Source: a virus. Taken from it: a DNA stretch of 31,566 nt. The stretch spans positions 1-31,566 of IMG/VR virus record IMGVR_UViG_3300028025_000019. One strand, written 5' to 3'. Shown piece after piece: positions 1 to 31,566 of the stretch (within the stretch, counting starts at the first letter, position 1; each line of letters begins with the position of its first letter). The translations under genes and the position numbers were made by a program. The notes below the pieces were generated by a model that saw only the letters and a program-made list of their open reading frames with translations, ran no database searches and was not told the origin of the DNA.

Positions 1-127
1 GCTGCAGGCTGCGCGCTTAGTTTTGTTACTTCGCTTGAAAGTGTTTCGTTTGCTTTCTTCATTTCAGAAAGTTCGCTTTCCAACTTAGCAACTAACGAAA
101 GAAGTCCTTCAACCTCTTTGCTTAGTG
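1..127. repeat. terminal direct repeat, left copy
   Basis: Identical to 31440-31566. Both copies lie inside the same minus-strand gene, whose frame continues across the join, so the repeat marks circular closure of the contig rather than a duplicated gene. The length equals a common maximum assembler k-mer. Confidence 0.95.
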
Positions 128-12418: not shown

Positions 12419-12664
12419 TTATACTATTAATTGTTCAATATCTATTTCGTGATGGCTGAGTAACGCTCGAAAGTATTCAAACACTTCCTCAATCCCTTCT
12501 TGGTACGCGCCTTCTTGTCGTTCGTTGTATTTGGTGAACTTCCTGTAACCGTTCATTTCAATTTCCCACAATAACATAGCCATGTCACGCGCCTTTGTTA
12601 TTCTGTTGAACTCAACACGATCGTCGAAGTCGGTAAGGTCAAATGTCAATGTTGCTGTACTCAT
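12419..12664 (-). CDS. 81-residue conserved phage protein
   Basis: Helical acidic protein beginning MSTATLTFDLTDFDDRVEFN, with a helix that contains MAMLLWEIEMNGYRKF. The DLTDFDDR...EFNR segment followed by a LWEI helix is a pattern I have seen in small proteins near terminase genes of Bacteroidota phages, without a known role. It overlaps the small terminase gene by four bases (ATGA), so the two are probably translated together. A packaging accessory role is possible but unsupported. Confidence 0.65.
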   Translation of the reverse strand: MSTATLTFDLTDFDDRVEFNRITKARDMAMLLWEIEMNGYRKFTKYNERQEGAYQEGIEEVFEYFRALLSHHEIDIEQLIV

Positions 12665-13074
12665 AACTTGTCATTGATTATTATTTGAATAGGCGCATCG
12701 TTAACACCTGCAATTTCATTTCGCTCAACGTACCCTCTTTTCTTTCCGCGCGTCTTCAAATAGAAAATTGTTGCGCTTGTGTTGGGTGCGTCTTGAATAC
12801 GTATTACTTCACCGTCTGGTGTTGACACCTCGCGGTGCGCTCCCTTAATCAATTCGAATAACTGACTTTCTGCAAAGTCAACAGCAAGGTCTGACAATGA
12901 TTCAACCTTTGCTTTGTAATCTTCGTCTTCTTGCAACCAACGATAGTGTGTTGTTCTATCTATTCCAACAATCTCACAGGCAGAAGTCACCACACCCAAA
13001 GTGCTTTCGAGAGCCTTTAGCATAGCAGTCTTTTTTAGTGTTGCGTTTTGTGGTTTGTTTTCTTCCTTGCTCAT
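12661..13074 (-). CDS. terS: terminase small subunit
   Basis: 137 residues. A basic N terminus is followed by a helix-turn-helix at about residues 29-50 (VVTSACEIVGIDRTTHYRWL), as in phBC6A51-type small terminase subunits, then a helical segment (LAVDFAESQLFELIKGA), a short beta hairpin with the dipeptides typical of the family (NTSATIFYLKTRGKKRGYVE) and a C-terminal strand. It should bind the packaging start site and load the large subunit. The large subunit lies 8.3 kb away on the opposite strand, which is unusual. A 450-bp non-coding region begins about 730 bases upstream in transcription order and could hold the packaging site. Confidence 0.8.
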   Translation of the reverse strand: MSKEENKPQNATLKKTAMLKALESTLGVVTSACEIVGIDRTTHYRWLQEDEDYKAKVESLSDLAVDFAESQLFELIKGAHREVSTPDGEVIRIQDAPNTSATIFYLKTRGKKRGYVERNEIAGVNDAPIQIIINDKL

Positions 13075-14255: not shown

Positions 14256-14696
14256 TTAATTGTTCAAATCAACATCAACATCCTTCATCGAATCAAGAAA
14301 CGTATTGATGTCTTTCTTAACGCAGGGCGGACACGTTGAACGCTCGTTGAATGCTCCTGTGGCTTTGTCTTTGAACGAATAGAACTTCAGCATATCTTTC
14401 TGCTCCAAACGTCCTTGCGCTTTCATATCGAGCAAGAATCGTTTGAACTCGATTTGTTCGTCCATAGAAAGAACACCGTTCCATTTTGACGCAGGACATT
14501 GCGCGAAGGCTAACTTCGCTTTGATAGGCATAACACATCCGCACAACTTAATCGACTTACGACGGAACAACACTTCGGTTTCTACTTCGTCGCCAACGAT
14601 CAATGGACCGCAAGACTGCGTGGATGCTTCGAAGAATTTACAGGTGCGACAAATTTCAAGTCGTCTTTTGTACTCATTGCTTTTTGCGAATAACAT
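14256..14696 (-). CDS. cysteine-rich, probably zinc-binding protein
   Basis: 146 residues with eight Cys in pairs: CRTC (16, 19), Cys29, CGC (52, 54), Cys67 and CPPC (122, 125). The first six fit the pattern EICRTCKFF...CG...LCGC...CPASKW, which I associate with small uncharacterised proteins of Bacteroidota phages and hosts; it probably binds one or two zinc ions. The middle is helical and charged (DEQIEFKRFLLDMKAQGRLEQ). The start lies 23 bases inside the sigma-like gene. It may bind nucleic acid or assist the sigma-like factor; that is inference from position only. Confidence 0.65.
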   Translation of the reverse strand: MLFAKSNEYKRRLEICRTCKFFEASTQSCGPLIVGDEVETEVLFRRKSIKLCGCVMPIKAKLAFAQCPASKWNGVLSMDEQIEFKRFLLDMKAQGRLEQKDMLKFYSFKDKATGAFNERSTCPPCVKKDINTFLDSMKDVDVDLNN

Positions 14697-15177
14697 TTGC
14701 TCTTATTTTTTGTTTGATACTATCAATTGTTCTGTACAAGAATACAGTTGGTATTCCTGTTTGTTTTGAAAATTCTCGGTAGGTAAATCCTTCGAAGATG
14801 TACTCTTGGAAGATTAAGCGTTCAAACTCGGTTAGACGACTGATAAGAATATCCAGTTGTTCGTTTGTCATTCGTGCGCCTAACCACGTCTTATCCACCT
14901 CGTGAGCATATTCTTTGAAGTCTCTGCGGTTTCTATTCCAGGCAATCGTTTGACGGTAGAAAGGTGAGTTTGGTGAGTTGACTGAAAGATACATAACGCG
15001 AATGAGGTAAAACTCAAACTCTCCTGTTTCGATTAGTTTCTCAATGTGCTTCGAGCCAAACATAGACAACAAACAATCATGCAAAAGATCCTCATAGAAA
15101 TCTTCACCTCGTGAAATTCCTTTCGCAAGTTCTTTGAACTTCTTGTAGTGTCCGTCTATGTATTGGTCAAGTTTCAC
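14674..15177 (-). CDS. sigma-70-like RNA polymerase sigma factor
   Basis: 167 residues. Residues 20-62 look like a reduced region 2 (RGEDFYEDLLHDCLLSMF then FEFYLIRVMYLSV). Residues 105-160 look like region 4 (LDILISRLTEFERLIFQEYI, then FTYREFSKQTGIPTVFLYRT), a helix-turn-helix that would contact the -33 element. The spacing between them resembles ECF-type factors, though the protein is divergent. It is encoded in the first minus-strand operon, before all structural genes, so a role in switching host RNA polymerase to late promoters is plausible. The start overlaps the nuclease stop by four bases. It might instead be an anti-termination or DNA-binding regulator. Confidence 0.65.
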   Translation of the reverse strand: MKLDQYIDGHYKKFKELAKGISRGEDFYEDLLHDCLLSMFGSKHIEKLIETGEFEFYLIRVMYLSVNSPNSPFYRQTIAWNRNRRDFKEYAHEVDKTWLGARMTNEQLDILISRLTEFERLIFQEYIFEGFTYREFSKQTGIPTVFLYRTIDSIKQKIRANVIRKKQ

Positions 15178-15584
15178 CCATTCAAGTATTCGTCTATTCT
15201 TTTGATAGCTTCCTCACTACCCTTACAAATATAAGAACAATAGTTTCTGTTTCTTAATTGCTCCTGCCAACGCTTCTGTTCTGGTGATGCAGTACCACCT
15301 TTTTCCTTCTTCATCTCAATAGCAAGACCGTGATATTCTCCGCGTGGTTCGTAAATGAATAGGTCGGGAAACCCTTTGACGTAACCGGTACGTTTCATTT
15401 TTATCGCTTGCAAGTAACTTGTCCTCATTCCACCGGCTGAAGCGCAGTACAACGCTTCAGGATATGCTAAACGAAGGTATTTCACAACGATTTCTTGTTG
15501 ATTTGCTTCGCTTTCAGGTGCAATTTTACGCTTCGCACTACTTTTTTTGTATGTTTTCTTAAAAGTTTTCACGTTCATTTTCAA
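15174..15584 (-). CDS. VRR-NUC family nuclease
   Basis: 136 residues. A basic N terminus is followed by the PD-(D/E)XK-like core of VRR-NUC proteins: helix with Glu26 and Gln30 (ESEANQQEIVVKYLRL), GFPDLFIY with Asp74, LAIEMKKEKGG with Glu90 and Lys92, and a SPEQKRWQEQLRNR helix. The family includes stand-alone phage resolvase-like enzymes. It could process replication or packaging intermediates. It is the first gene of the minus unit, about 90 bases downstream of a predicted promoter. Two starts are possible (15584 and 15578); the first is kept. Catalytic residues are inferred from the motif, not tested. Confidence 0.83.
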   Translation of the reverse strand: MKMNVKTFKKTYKKSSAKRKIAPESEANQQEIVVKYLRLAYPEALYCASAGGMRTSYLQAIKMKRTGYVKGFPDLFIYEPRGEYHGLAIEMKKEKGGTASPEQKRWQEQLRNRNYCSYICKGSEEAIKRIDEYLNG

Positions 15585-17076: not shown

Positions 17077-17868
17077 ATGGGTTATTACAAGCGAATAAGC
17101 GAGGAAGAACAAATGTCAGCAAACGAATGGTTCTGGCAGAACGAAGAAGCGAAACTCGCAAACAAATTTGAAAATTATATAAATCAACAACAAATAAACA
17201 ACAACAACATGAGCATCATTGCACAACAAAACAACAACAACAGCGGAGGTCAAACAGTACCTGCAGGAACGCACGTAGCACGTTGCTATCAAATCATTCA
17301 CATTGGAACAATTGTGGACACTTACCAGGGCGAAGAAAAGCTAGTGAACAAGGTTCGCTTAGTGTTTGAATTGCCACTTGAAACCGCCGATTTCGGTAAA
17401 GGTGAACAGCCGTTTTCAATCGGTCGCGACTTCACACTTTCAATGCACGAGAAAAGCGGACTAAGAGCCTTCGTTCAATCTTGGTTAGGTAAGGCAATGA
17501 GCGACGCAGAAGCAAACAAATTCGACATTGGTACTTTGTTAGGTAAGGAAGCAATGGTTTCTGTTATGCACCGCACAGCGAACACAGGGCGCACTTACGC
17601 AGACTTAAAGGGAGCATCACCACTTGCAAAAGGAATGGTTTGTCCACCACAAGTGAACGCTTCGTTCTTGTTGGACTACGACAGCGAAGACTTCGACTTG
17701 CGCTTTAAGATGCTTCCAGAATGGTTGCAAAACAAAGTGAGTTCTTCTGCTGAATTTAGTAAACGTTTGGAGCGTTCAGCGGATCAAATGAACAAGGCGA
17801 AGGAAATGCTCGAAGCGAAAGGATTAGTTCAACCAACACAAGAAAACGAAGACGACCTTCCATTCTAA
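17077..17868 (+). CDS. single-stranded-DNA-binding-like protein (DUF669-like)
   Basis: Up to 263 residues. The core from about residue 58 (TVPAGTHVARCYQIIHIGTI) through LVFELP and FTLSMHEKSGLRAFVQSWLG resembles DUF669-like phage proteins of the SSB/recombination group. The acidic C terminus NEDDLPF copies the tail of bacterial SSB proteins, which recruits replication partners. The start is uncertain: residues 1-44 are followed by aacaacaacaac and an ATG at 17209, which looks like a leader and start, giving 219 residues. Both starts may be used. It probably coats single-stranded DNA in replication. Confidence 0.68.
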   Translation: MGYYKRISEEEQMSANEWFWQNEEAKLANKFENYINQQQINNNNMSIIAQQNNNNSGGQTVPAGTHVARCYQIIHIGTIVDTYQGEEKLVNKVRLVFELPLETADFGKGEQPFSIGRDFTLSMHEKSGLRAFVQSWLGKAMSDAEANKFDIGTLLGKEAMVSVMHRTANTGRTYADLKGASPLAKGMVCPPQVNASFLLDYDSEDFDLRFKMLPEWLQNKVSSSAEFSKRLERSADQMNKAKEMLEAKGLVQPTQENEDDLPF

Positions 17869-18799: not shown

Positions 18800-19019
18800 A
18801 ACGCCATTCGGTCGACTTGTCAAAAGTCAATTCAAGACGATGAACAACTTCAAAAACGTTCTTCGAATAAGCGACCCAACGGCACGTCTTTATGTTACGC
18901 ATCCAGAGCGAATGAGAATTAAAGACTTCAACAACATTTGCCTTCACACAGGACTTTCACGCGAAGAAGTATTCAGCACATTTACACCAACAATTTTAAT
19001 AAACGAGGAAAATGACTAA
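18780..19019 (+). CDS. 79-residue basic hypothetical protein
   Basis: Begins MNKAIYKTPFGRLVKSQFKT; the second half (ARLYVTHPERMRIKDFNNIC followed by GLSREEVFSTF) resembles a short helix-turn-helix, with the turn at HTGLSREEV. It could be a small DNA-binding regulator of the replication genes that follow. It overlaps the gene before by 20 bases and the DnaA-like gene by eight. Identification is tentative. Confidence 0.58.
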   Translation: MNKAIYKTPFGRLVKSQFKTMNNFKNVLRISDPTARLYVTHPERMRIKDFNNICLHTGLSREEVFSTFTPTILINEEND

Positions 19020-19542
19020 CGAACAAATTAGACAAGAGATAGTTGACATGATACCGTTTCGATACATGGAACGCTTCGAAACACTTTGGACGATGCTCAC
19101 GCCACGCTACGAGCGTTTAACGTCCGAACAAATCAAACAACAACAGGAACTCGAAAACGAACGTGAAATGTTCTGGAGCGCACTTGAAGACGTGACGTGT
19201 TCCGTGTTGGGTGTTCCTTCGCAATTGCTTTATTCACCAACAAGAAAACGCGAAATCGTTACAGCAAGACAAATAGTGTTCTTCATTATCCGTCCTTGTT
19301 ATATGCAGAGTTTTGAGAGCATAGGTGATCACTACGGAAAAGACCACGCCACTGTAATGCACGGAGTGAAACAAGCTAGTTGGCAAATTGAATGTGATAG
19401 GAACTACCGAGCGAACGTTGAACGCATCTGTTATTTATTAAATGATATTGGCTATGCTAAACCAATGAAATTTTTAACTAAATTTGTCGAGCATTTAGAA
19501 CACCAAAAAGAAATCAAACTAAAAAAACAATTAAAGAAATGA
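19012..19542 (+). CDS. DnaA domain IV protein without ATPase domain
   Basis: 176 residues. Residues 60-120 match the DNA-binding domain of the replication initiator DnaA: LGVPSQLLYSPTRKREIVTA RQ helix, then IGDHYGKDHATVMHGV, with Asp111, His112 and Thr114 of the DnaA signature (DHxTV). The AAA+ ATPase domain III is absent; residues 1-58 are an acidic coiled helix and the last 40 are basic. In DnaA this domain binds the DnaA box. A free domain could mark a phage origin, compete with host DnaA, or act as a regulator. It is translated with the zinc-ribbon gene after it (four-base overlap). Confidence 0.82.
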   Translation: MTNEQIRQEIVDMIPFRYMERFETLWTMLTPRYERLTSEQIKQQQELENEREMFWSALEDVTCSVLGVPSQLLYSPTRKREIVTARQIVFFIIRPCYMQSFESIGDHYGKDHATVMHGVKQASWQIECDRNYRANVERICYLLNDIGYAKPMKFLTKFVEHLEHQKEIKLKKQLKK

Positions 19543-19755: not shown

Positions 19756-20163
19756 ATGATGCTAATACTACAACTAAAGAAACGAGTTGAAACACTCGAA
19801 GCGCAGGTTCAAGAACTATTGAAAGCGCAAACGCAAACCGCTCAACTTCCAGCACCTGTAAAAGAAAAGAAAGAAACATTCAAGAAACCAACGGTGAAAG
19901 AAATCTTTGACTATGCTTGCGAAAAGTTAAGCAACGACGACGCGTTAAAGTTTACCGAGAAATTCCACGCACACTACGAGGCGAATGGTTGGAAGGTCGG
20001 ACGCAATCAAATGAAAGATTGGAAAGCTGCCGTTCGCAAGTGGGATTTAAGTACATTTGACACTTCAAAAACAAACCAACAAATCAAAATCAAAAATGGA
20101 AAATTCGACGCCGATGCTGCGCAACGCATCTACAACGACGCTCACAATTACACAAAGGGTTGA
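19756..20163 (+). CDS. DnaT-like replication protein with coiled coil
   Basis: 135 residues. Residues 1-30 form a coiled coil (LKKRVETLEAQVQELLKAQ), followed by a Pro/Lys linker. Residues 45-95 carry a domain found in primosomal and phage replication proteins: VKEIFDYACEKL, FTEKFHAHYEANGWKVG and MKDWKAAVRKWD. That domain lies in DnaT-like proteins that help load the replicative helicase. The C terminus overlaps the next gene by 68 bases. It probably recruits host helicase to the phage origin with the neighbouring proteins. Confidence 0.72.
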   Translation: MMLILQLKKRVETLEAQVQELLKAQTQTAQLPAPVKEKKETFKKPTVKEIFDYACEKLSNDDALKFTEKFHAHYEANGWKVGRNQMKDWKAAVRKWDLSTFDTSKTNQQIKIKNGKFDADAAQRIYNDAHNYTKG

Positions 20164-20851
20164 TCGTGCGGAAAGAGAAAGCGCATTTGTAGCCGACTAC
20201 GACCTACCAACATTCGTTAAGTTATGCTCAAAGGTCTGCGCGATGTATGGAATAGCACTTCCCGAAGCACAACTACTCCAGATGCTGCATGAATTTATAG
20301 GTAAACACTTTCGGTGGGTTACTTTTGAACACTTCAACCTCGCGTTCGAACTAAATGCAGCGAATGAACTAACAAAGAAATGCGAACACTTCGGAGCGTT
20401 GAGCGTGTCGTTTATTGGCGACGTATTGACACACTACAAACCACACAGGGACAAAGCGAACTTACAAATTCAGAGAGAGATTGCAGAAGCAATAGAAGAA
20501 AAATCACAACAAATAAAGGAGAATGAAATGGCGGTAAACGACGACAGCTGGAGAAGAATGTTGGACGAAGACGTGCAGAGCTTCAAACAAGGCAAAATGA
20601 CGACGTTAGAATTGCGAGGTGTGTCAATGATGCGGTGGTTAGAAGAAAGTAAGCGTATTACAGCGGAAACATTCACGGACGACGAATATAATCTTTGCAA
20701 AGCAAAGGCACGAAAGACAGTCTTCAACGAACAGCAACTAAGCAAAGGAATGGTTGAACGAATGAGTGACAGGAAGCGTCAGCTTCTAAAAGAAGCAATT
20801 CAGTTTGAAGGCTTCCGTGAACTTTACAAACTTTATTTGTCAAAGCAATGA
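20096..20851 (+). CDS. replication-module protein of unknown mechanism
   Basis: 251 residues from the ATG at 20096, which follows the leader aaatcaaaatcaaaa; a TTG at 20057 is in frame but less likely. Mainly helical: DYDLPTFVKLCSKVCAMYGI, FRWVTFEHFNLAFELNAA and FIGDVLTHYKPHRD are the most conserved-looking parts, then a long charged helix. No Walker motif is visible, so it is not a typical helicase loader ATPase. I know the pattern from Bacteroidota phages next to DnaT-like genes. The long overlap with that gene suggests a shared regulation. Confidence 0.6.
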   Translation: MENSTPMLRNASTTTLTITQRVDRAERESAFVADYDLPTFVKLCSKVCAMYGIALPEAQLLQMLHEFIGKHFRWVTFEHFNLAFELNAANELTKKCEHFGALSVSFIGDVLTHYKPHRDKANLQIQREIAEAIEEKSQQIKENEMAVNDDSWRRMLDEDVQSFKQGKMTTLELRGVSMMRWLEESKRITAETFTDDEYNLCKAKARKTVFNEQQLSKGMVERMSDRKRQLLKEAIQFEGFRELYKLYLSKQ

Positions 20852-21198
20852 GTAAGTATAATTGGAACGAAAAAGGGCATTGTGAAAACCCAGACGGAAT
20901 GTATTACAAAGCCGACGGAATTTTCGCTTCTTATGATGTTGCCAAAAATAAGTATGGTTGGAAATACTCGTGGACAATACACGGATCAAACGTGACCATT
21001 TGCACTCCGATTGGTTGGTACGAAGAAGATGTTTATGCAACTGCAAAACAAGCAATTGAACAGGCAAAGTTCGAATTGACACAAGCACTTCAACTAGGAA
21101 ACTTCAATGGACGTTTTGACGGAGTGTTAATGGCAATTGGTGAAGTTGTACAACCGAAAAAAGAATTAGTTAGTGAACCTCAATTAAGTTTATTTTAA
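20848..21198 (+). CDS. 116-residue protein ending in sliding-clamp motif QLSLF
   Basis: Aromatic N-terminal half (KYNWNEKGHCENPDGMYYKA, then KYGWKYSWTIHGSNVTICTP), a helix rich in Ala (VYATAKQAIEQAKFELTQAL), and a C terminus EPQLSLF. QLSLF is exactly the bacterial beta-clamp-binding pentapeptide QL(S/D)LF, placed at the flexible end where such motifs act. The protein could therefore tether to host DnaN and recruit it or block it. It lies between replication genes and the terminase. The core fold is not recognised. It overlaps its neighbours by four bases and one base. Confidence 0.65.
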   Translation: MSKYNWNEKGHCENPDGMYYKADGIFASYDVAKNKYGWKYSWTIHGSNVTICTPIGWYEEDVYATAKQAIEQAKFELTQALQLGNFNGRFDGVLMAIGEVVQPKKELVSEPQLSLF

Positions 21199-21374
21199 TG
21201 AGAAAGTACAAATTCATTCATCCTGTAACAGGCGAAGCGCATGAAGTTTTATGTGAACAAGTGCAAGAGTATGGAACGTCTGCTCAAAATTATTGGTGGT
21301 GCTTAATCGGAGATAAAATAATTGCACAAATTCCGCAGTCTTACGCAATGATTAGAATAGATGAAACCTTATAA
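21198..21374 (+). CDS. 58-residue hypothetical protein before terL
   Basis: ATG overlaps the previous stop by one base (TAATG); the TAA at 21372-21374 lies inside the terminase start region. Begins MRKYKFIHPVTGEAHEVLCE, a beta hairpin, then NYWWCLIGDKIIAQIP. Two Cys, three Trp or Tyr in the middle. Tight packing is the main support. Its role may be linked to packaging by position only. Confidence 0.6.
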   Translation: MRKYKFIHPVTGEAHEVLCEQVQEYGTSAQNYWWCLIGDKIIAQIPQSYAMIRIDETL

Positions 21375-22779
21375 ACCCGAATACCTGCCGCGTCAGATTG
21401 AAGCGTTGAGTTACCTTGCAACCGATTGTGAAGTTGAGCAATTGTTATACGGTGGCGCGGCGGGCGGTGGTAAGACGAAGTTCGGGTGTATGTGGCAAAT
21501 ACAACGACGTTTGAAGTACGCTGGAACACGTTCGCTTATTGGACGTTCTAAATTAGACACGCTCAAAAAGACCACGCTCAACACGTTCTTTGAAACGGCT
21601 CAAGACTTTGGTTTAGTTGCTGACAAACACTACACCTACAACGGACAAACAAACGTTATTAAGTTCTTCAATGGAAGTGAAATAGTGCTAAAAGACCTAT
21701 TCGCTTATCCTTCAAAAGAAAACTTCGACCAACTTGGGTCGCTTGAAATACTTGACTATTTCATAGATGAAGTTTCAGAAGTTACCGAGAAAGCCGTGAA
21801 CATCGTTCATTCTCGTTGCCGCCATAAGTTAACTCATTTCTGCAATAAATGTTCAGCACCAGAACTGAATAAAGGTGAAGTAACAAAACAAGATGAAAGC
21901 GGTAAACCTATTGAATGGAAATGTAGTAATTGTAATTCATTAAGCGCGGGGTTAATTCCGAAAGGTTTTCTTTCGTGTAATCCTTCAAAGGGTTGGTTGT
22001 ATAATGAGTTCTATATGAAGAACAACCGTAACGAACTACCTTTACATCGAGCGCTTGTTCAAGCGTTACCGCAAGACAATCCGTTCTTACCTTCAGCATA
22101 CATCGAATCTCTTAGAAGACTTCCAGAATATGACCGAAAAAGACTTTTAGAAGGTAATTGGGAGTTTGACGACGACAGCGACAAACTATTCAACACGGAG
22201 AACCTGCTTCGAATGTTCCGCAACGAAGTAATCAATGAAGGAAAGAAATATATCACAGCCGATATTGCGCGTTTTGGGAAGGATAGAACGATTATTATTG
22301 TTTGGGAAGGTCTTACCATTATCGATATAATTGAACTCAATCGTGCAGGAATTGACGAGGTTGTAAATAAGATACGCGTTGTGATGAAAGAACATTCAAT
22401 TCTTTTACAAAATGTTATCTGTGATGAAGATGGAGTTGGTGGGGGAACGGTCGACTTTCTTAAGTGTTTAGGATTTCAGAACGGATCTAAACCAAAACAC
22501 CCGCAATATCAAAACTTAAAGAGTGAATGTTACTACAAATTGGCTCAATACGTCGAAGAAAACAAGGTCACAATCTTATCTAACACACGCAAAGAACAAA
22601 TCATTCGCGAACTGGAGATGATTAAGCGACACCGCGCAGACGTGGATGGAAAGTTGCAGGTAACACCGAAAGACGTTATCAAAAACCGCGAAGGAATAAG
22701 TCCAGACGTTGCCGACGCGATAATGATGCGAATGTATTTCGAACTCAATCCAACTTATGGACAATATGTTGTCGGTTAG
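21361..22779 (+). CDS. terL: terminase large subunit
   Basis: 472 residues. Walker A is GGAAGGGKT (31-39), Walker B with catalytic Glu is YFIDE (133-137), and SCNPSKGW (205-212) is the coupling region. The nuclease domain shows Asp301 in TADIARFGKD, Asp355 and Asp357 in CDEDGVGGG, and Asp449/Asp452 in PDVADAIMM. An inserted zinc knuckle uses Cys161, Cys164, Cys188 and Cys191. This is the ATP-driven DNA packaging motor and cutting enzyme. It is on the plus strand in the early block, apart from the small subunit and all head genes. The first 14 bases overlap the preceding gene. Confidence 0.95.
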   Translation: MKPYKPEYLPRQIEALSYLATDCEVEQLLYGGAAGGGKTKFGCMWQIQRRLKYAGTRSLIGRSKLDTLKKTTLNTFFETAQDFGLVADKHYTYNGQTNVIKFFNGSEIVLKDLFAYPSKENFDQLGSLEILDYFIDEVSEVTEKAVNIVHSRCRHKLTHFCNKCSAPELNKGEVTKQDESGKPIEWKCSNCNSLSAGLIPKGFLSCNPSKGWLYNEFYMKNNRNELPLHRALVQALPQDNPFLPSAYIESLRRLPEYDRKRLLEGNWEFDDDSDKLFNTENLLRMFRNEVINEGKKYITADIARFGKDRTIIIVWEGLTIIDIIELNRAGIDEVVNKIRVVMKEHSILLQNVICDEDGVGGGTVDFLKCLGFQNGSKPKHPQYQNLKSECYYKLAQYVEENKVTILSNTRKEQIIRELEMIKRHRADVDGKLQVTPKDVIKNREGISPDVADAIMMRMYFELNPTYGQYVVG

Positions 22780-31339: not shown

Positions 31340-31566
31340 TTATTTTTTAAGGTTAAATAAGAAACGTTCTTCTGCCGACATTTTAGCGTATGGCTTAGAA
31401 GGTGTTTGTTTTGCCTGTTTTACTTCTTTGATTGAAGACGCTGCAGGCTGCGCGCTTAGTTTTGTTACTTCGCTTGAAAGTGTTTCGTTTGCTTTCTTCA
31501 TTTCAGAAAGTTCGCTTTCCAACTTAGCAACTAACGAAAGAAGTCCTTCAACCTCTTTGCTTAGTG
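31340..31566 (-). CDS. scaffold-like head protein, C-terminal part
   Basis: Continuation of the gene at 1-473; bases above 31439 repeat the left end. This part holds the coiled coil (LESELSEMKKANETLSSEVT) and a basic C terminus (KQAKQTPSKPYAKMSAEERF LFNLKK with TAA at 31340-31342). Basic C-terminal tails of scaffold proteins often bind the capsid protein, consistent with the next gene. The 127-base overlap means this sequence was counted twice in the linear window. Confidence 0.75.
   Translation of the reverse strand, partial: LSKEVEGLLSLVAKLESELSEMKKANETLSSEVTKLSAQPAASSIKEVKQAKQTPSKPYAKMSAEERFLFNLKK
31440..31566. repeat. terminal direct repeat, right copy
   Basis: Identical to bases 1-127; see the left copy. 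Removing one copy gives the circular length of about 31,439 bp. Confidence 0.95.

Follow-up and report, generated by a model that had tools for sequence, protein, structure and literature searches.

The β-clamp-binding motif has the consensus Q-φ-x-[L/M]-[F/L] and is often located in C-terminal tails; the motifs with the best affinity read QLxLF and are tolerant at the third position (PMC11139829). QLSLF is the clamp motif at the exact C terminus of PolC from Bacillus subtilis and binds DnaN (PMC12309361). Clamp-binding tails are also known from mobile-element proteins, as the transposases of many insertion sequences (e.g. of the IS1634 family) engage the host clamp with a C-terminal QLxLF (PMC4549789). 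In Hda, the motif is N-terminal (PMC11139829) and the protein contains an AAA+ domain. Among phage proteins, gp168 of Staphylococcus phage Twort acts on the host sliding clamp and is listed as a DNA-channel binder that blocks loading (PMC11139829), while the small T4 proteins gp33 and gp55 bind the phage's own clamp gp45 with C-terminal motifs (PMC9690074). In eukaryotes, the methyltransferase DNMT1 methylates new DNA while tethered to the sliding clamp PCNA (PMC9690074).

The window, i.e. the whole stretch of 31,566 nucleotides analysed here, encodes a protein of 116 aa that ends with the same pentapeptide as PolC. Unlike PolC, it is not a polymerase but has an unrelated small core. It has no transposase domain, and its motif is linked to a slot of phage genomes that also holds DNA-modification enzymes, which sets it apart from the insertion-sequence transposases. 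Its motif is C-terminal and not N-terminal as in Hda. Twort gp168 resembles it in the role proposed below and differs by the described binding site. A clamp corresponding to T4 gp45 was not found in the phage genome. DNMT1 resembles the tailed methyltransferases of the slot, whereas its motif and clamp are unrelated and the 116-aa protein has no methyltransferase domain. The gene is divided as follows.

20848..21198, + strand: whole gene of the 116-aa clamp-tail protein (small QLxLF family), an ORF from ATG to TAA with homologues
20893..21144, + strand: core, residues 16-99 (AlphaFold2 on 34 homologues)
21145..21180, + strand: variable linker, residues 100-111 (substitution counts, indel, low pLDDT)
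21181..21195, + strand: predicted C-terminal clamp-binding motif Q112-L-S-L-F116 with invariant Q, L, L and F

The initial annotation had described this ORF as ending with a consensus QLSLF at a free C terminus. This was confirmed: the exact C terminus is ...KKELVSEPQLSLF with the final residues SEPQLSLF. Judging by its homologues in 43 and 80 viral-contig loci, the ORF is a real gene. Its end overlaps the next ORF (58 aa) by TAATG, and the predicted isoelectric point of the protein is ~5. It is the sole carrier of Q[LIMV]x[LM][FL] at any position among the 50 predicted genes, while residue shuffles led to an expectation of 0.0065 C-terminal matches per genome by chance.

Searches in IMG/VR yielded 123 loci with 91 distinct proteins in two sister families. 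Family A (three IMG/VR scans) has 43 members including the window, all of which end with QLxLF, x being S, A, T, E, Q or L; a further candidate, locus L046, was a spurious match. The 80 members of family B occupy the same genomic place and end with QLSLF or QLTLF, although one of the two search patterns contained QL and slightly favoured the first two motif residues. Both families are homologous without their tails (hhalign probability 96.7%, E 4e-10). QLxLF was terminal in 91/91 distinct homologues, and only A69, P103, Q112, L113, L115 and F116 were 100% conserved in the joint alignment. No relative was found in the GenBank phage collection or among 180 matches of a pattern scan of bacterial genomes, and no convincing clamp-tail gene was present around the terminases of Flavobacterium phage 11b and Cellulophaga phi10:1.

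Substitutions were counted on a tree of 29 distinct family A genes. The codons 112, 113, 115 and 116 (motif positions 1, 2, 4 and 5) had undergone 19 synonymous and 0 nonsynonymous changes, codon 114 (position 3) 12 nonsynonymous ones between S, A, T, E, Q and L. In the linker (codons 100-111), 77 nonsynonymous versus 45 synonymous changes were found. Given the ratio in the core (292/668 nonsynonymous), 0 nonsynonymous among 19 changes has a chance of ~2e-5, which is simple arithmetic that ignores codon-specific opportunity. Constraint at positions 1, 2, 4 and 5 with a free position 3 is the pattern that a clamp motif with its tolerant third position predicts, and we infer from it that the protein very probably binds the host β clamp. 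Of the earlier proposal that a phage protein seizes the host clamp, docking is thus supported by sequence evolution; the suggested role as adaptor or inhibitor was not supported, as set out below.

AlphaFold2 predicted a core with β strands at residues 16-22, 25-33 and 38-45, a helix at 66-84 and a second one at 91-97. The mean pLDDT was 83 for the whole chain and 81-93 for the core blocks. Past residue 97, no secondary structure was predicted. The tail forms an extension beyond the core with a pLDDT of 43-62 (43-48 for the last residues), so that burial of the motif is not suggested and the motif is predicted to lie in a disordered, accessible tail. A 4-aa indel occurs in the linker of L019/L020.

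The clamp-tail protein gave no usable family match in Pfam, PHROG, NCBIfam or PADLOC. These searches revealed neither an AAA+ ATPase, clamp loader or Hda family, in accordance with the initial annotation, nor a known modification-enzyme or anti-restriction family; the methyltransferase and Mom domains PF00145, PF01555 and PF25680 were absent in Pfam. The best hit of a PDB sequence search had an E value of 0.92 and equals chance. Foldseek against the PDB with two models gave nothing below E 0.02, the best match being a partial one to PURA, and VIA reached a best Z of 4.4-5.0 for the core, which is no convincing PDB fold. The matches to PURA, dsRBD, WGR and Rv1738-like folds were partial, weak and not significant. 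Matches of the core in a viral structure library were uncharacterised proteins.

Relatives of the neighbourhood were collected through the upstream 251-aa gene, i.e. the clamp-tail gene was not used as bait. The stretch between this gene and the terminase gene is an exchangeable slot with the following boundaries and occupants in addition to the clamp-tail gene.

20096..20851, + strand: conserved 251-aa protein, upstream boundary of the slot; the end of its gene overlaps the start of the clamp-tail gene by ATGA
21198..21374, + strand: 58-aa ORF, second slot occupant in some relatives, without clamp motif
21361..22779, + strand: large subunit of the terminase, whose gene bounds the slot downstream (PF04466, E 6.6e-7; phrog_979, E 1.4e-28)

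The slot contained an ORF in 73 loci: the small QLxLF gene in 38, a C5-type methyltransferase, an N6/N4 methyltransferase or an SspD-like protein in 29, and both in 0. The small gene and these enzymes are therefore mutually exclusive (Fisher P 8.5e-15, shared ancestry not being controlled). The C5-cytosine methyltransferase-type genes belong to PF00145 and the N6/N4 methyltransferases to PF01555. The SspD-like protein is PAPS-reductase-like with PF01507 at E 2.3e-4, just below the cut-off, and PADLOC SspD at 3.8e-9. SspD belongs to phosphorothioation systems. Mom (PF25680) and a GNAT acetyltransferase were located next to the small gene in three loci. One slot contained a thymidylate synthase and the slot is therefore not purely devoted to DNA modification.

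The slot enzymes share the tail with the small protein. A terminal Qxx[LMI][FL] was present in 38/38 small proteins, 11/20 C5-type, 5/6 N6/N4 and 4/4 SspD-like ORFs; the C-terminal motif was missing from the other 9/20 C5-type ORFs. The tails read QLKLF or QLTLF on C5-type enzymes, QQKLF on N6/N4 enzymes, QLNLF on the SspD-like protein and QTELF on Mom. Overall, 92/107 slots contained a tailed gene, in a set that includes loci picked for the small gene, while outside the slot the tail occurred on 1/526 ORFs of at least 100 aa. It was absent from homologous enzymes of the eight other phages checked, namely two of Bacteroides, one each of Paenibacillus, Nitrincola and Verrucomicrobia and a faecal contig, together with the Mom proteins of a Listeria and an Acinetobacter phage. 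The tail is therefore no inherent part of these enzymes.

Some slot proteins deviated from this scheme. In L136 (1227-1949), L139, L141 and L142, a 240-aa protein that clusters with the slot C5-methyltransferases has no C-terminal motif and carries QISLF near the N terminus (MKTSQKQISLFTEEQL), where it may serve as a clamp motif. The slot GNAT acetyltransferase of L009 (4441-4998) and L153 (2437-2994) ends with NIISLF, which is clamp-like but degenerate and has no glutamine. The SspD/PAPS-reductase-like protein with its QLNLF tail is alone in the slot in L149 (3632-4423) and three further loci; its relatives in other phages have no tail.

The slot pattern was replicated in a second, more distant clade that was gathered through its own 247-aa counterpart of the 251-aa gene. 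Here, 58 slots contained the small gene (22), a tailed C5-methyltransferase (5) or a tailed N6/N4 methyltransferase (3), each time as the only tailed gene, or no tailed gene at all (28); two tailed families never shared a slot. In many slots of this clade without a tailed gene (L292, L298, L301, L323, L335 and others), the 247-aa gene is followed by a protein of 209-212 aa (MAKDWTIEEMQYLV...) and then by one of 83 aa.

For a phage, the protection of new DNA has to precede its encounter with restriction enzymes. The reading that we prefer, with a rough probability of 0.5, is an accessory clamp-docked protein that acts on phage DNA at the fork and most likely protects the new DNA. The free C-terminal QLxLF peptide would dock on the β sliding clamp of the host DNA polymerase III, and a flexible linker would join this tail to the small β3-α core. 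The core could then act on phage DNA directly at the host replication fork or immediately behind it. Its most likely job would be to protect phage DNA that has just been synthesised, by countering restriction or by aiding modification. Protection is proposed because the slot is filled in relatives by methyltransferases and the SspD-like protein, most of which are tailed; this is an argument of guilt by slot, and for a part of the protein in DNA protection the odds are about even. The mutual exclusion could also reflect a site for the insertion of one gene instead of a shared function. It is conceivable, and put forward more tentatively, that the slot embodies a 'clamp-tag' strategy: an exchangeable DNA-protection cassette in which each protein has a C-terminal clamp tail and acts during synthesis by the host replisome. 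The QLxLF protein, no known modification enzyme, would then represent a new class of fork-tethered anti-restriction proteins, of which it would be the first to be recognised.

The initial annotation had suggested a replication adaptor or a clamp inhibitor, arguing that the phage encodes no polymerase. The record has a direct terminal repeat of 127 bp with identical copies at window positions 1-127 and 31440-31566 and is therefore a complete phage genome of ~31.4 kb. In this genome, family searches for DNA Pol III alpha, DNA Pol A and the β clamp were all negative, and a replicase was not found among the other large proteins scanned with Pfam, these scans being also the sole coverage of B-family polymerases. 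The statement that no polymerase is encoded thus holds for the families tested. The number of DnaA box matches (30 versus 37 expected) gave no origin signal. The nearest annotated terminases are those of Flavobacterium and Cellulophaga phages with 44-45% identity to the one in the window, and a scan of bacterial genomes with the terminase revealed no relative. Further genes that bear on the role of the clamp-tail gene are listed here.

12661-13074, - strand: terminase small-subunit candidate
17077..17868, + strand: NGO0469-family phage replication initiation protein (NF046043, E 4.5e-53)
19012..19542, + strand: DnaA domain-IV-like DNA-binding protein (PF08299, E 2.5e-16), in the same cluster as the clamp-tail gene

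Some plasmid initiators recruit the host clamp or the Pol III holoenzyme at the origin. As an adaptor, the clamp-tail protein would bring the host clamp and the Pol III holoenzyme to the origin of the phage or keep them there, which would suit a genome in which no replicase or clamp was found and a gene that clusters with those of the DnaA domain-IV-like, NGO0469-family and 251-aa proteins. The NGO0469-family protein itself has an acidic, SSB-like C-terminal tail, DDLPF, that was found as DDLPF, DELPF or DDMPF in 8/8 relatives checked. However, many close relatives do not have the clamp-tail gene though they keep the same replication cluster, or have a methyltransferase in its place, and a cytosine methyltransferase should not substitute for a core replication factor. 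The gene is dispensable and therefore no core replication factor; an essential role in replication is unlikely, and we consider the adaptor rather doubtful. As an observation of its own, the SSB-like tail of the NGO0469-family protein is a possible second docking tail toward host replication proteins.

A competitor or inhibitor of the clamp would occupy the groove in place of host polymerases, repair proteins or MutS, and host DNA synthesis would stop. A free QLxLF peptide is able to compete for this groove, which is common to all partners (PMC11139829); a small accessory protein would also suit this role. Yet the phage has its own need of the host clamp, the conserved core would be superfluous, and the known phage inhibitor Twort gp168 is listed at the DNA channel and not at the peptide pocket (PMC11139829). 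The exchange with tailed enzymes suggests that an activity is tethered and not that the clamp is blocked. Inhibition therefore appears unlikely, and fork-tethered DNA protection or anti-restriction is favoured over both roles that the annotation had suggested.

Late transcription or packaging might also be coupled to replication if the clamp-bound protein recruited RNA polymerase or the adjoining terminase. T4 gp33 and gp55 work in this way via the phage clamp gp45 with C-terminal binding motifs (PMC9690074). The clamp-tail gene adjoins the terminase gene, and the gene at 14674-15177 (- strand) codes for a protein similar to phage sigma factors in their C-terminal part (phrog_1740, E 6.3e-11). 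This sigma-like protein has no clamp motif, however, and there are relatives that keep the terminase without the clamp-tail gene, which makes the coupling very improbable. The sigma-like gene is adjoined by a VRR-NUC nuclease at 15174-15584 (- strand). A function of the clamp-tail protein as the small terminase was rejected, as the candidate for the small subunit is encoded at 12661-13074 (- strand).

That the tail is a structural element or recombination remnant at the 3' end of the slot, left on any inserted gene, is very unlikely: different occupants do share the ending TTATTT plus stop as well as the terminase start behind it, but the codons vary between and within families (CAATTAAGTTTATTT, CAATTATCTCTATTT, CAGCTAGAGCTATTT, CAACTAACACTATTT) and this diversity argues against a remnant, as do the zero amino-acid changes at four motif positions and the Qxx[LIM][FL] ends of mid-slot Mom and of Mom in unrelated contigs.

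No description of a slot of interchangeable clamp-tagged DNA-modification genes or of the QLxLF family was found in the literature and databases searched. If the preferred reading of protection at the fork is true, the phage would have found a simple solution via the clamp of its host, as DNMT1 uses PCNA. An exact C-terminal Qxx[LMI][FL] in such slots would then serve as a rule to find unrecognised anti-restriction genes, and the tails would be natural peptides tuned to host clamps.

Mom-family genes are located in L006 (4323-4982) and L008 (1546-2205). The tail is absent from Mom of Listeria phage LP-124 and Acinetobacter phage JeffCo. Among the Mom homologues on 80 viral contigs (L047-L126) that are closest to the L006 protein, 77/80 end with Qxx[LIM][FL], for example QTELF, QTKLF or QLNLF, and a further two differ by an additional residue. 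Clamp-binding tails may be common among phage Mom proteins and as yet undescribed.
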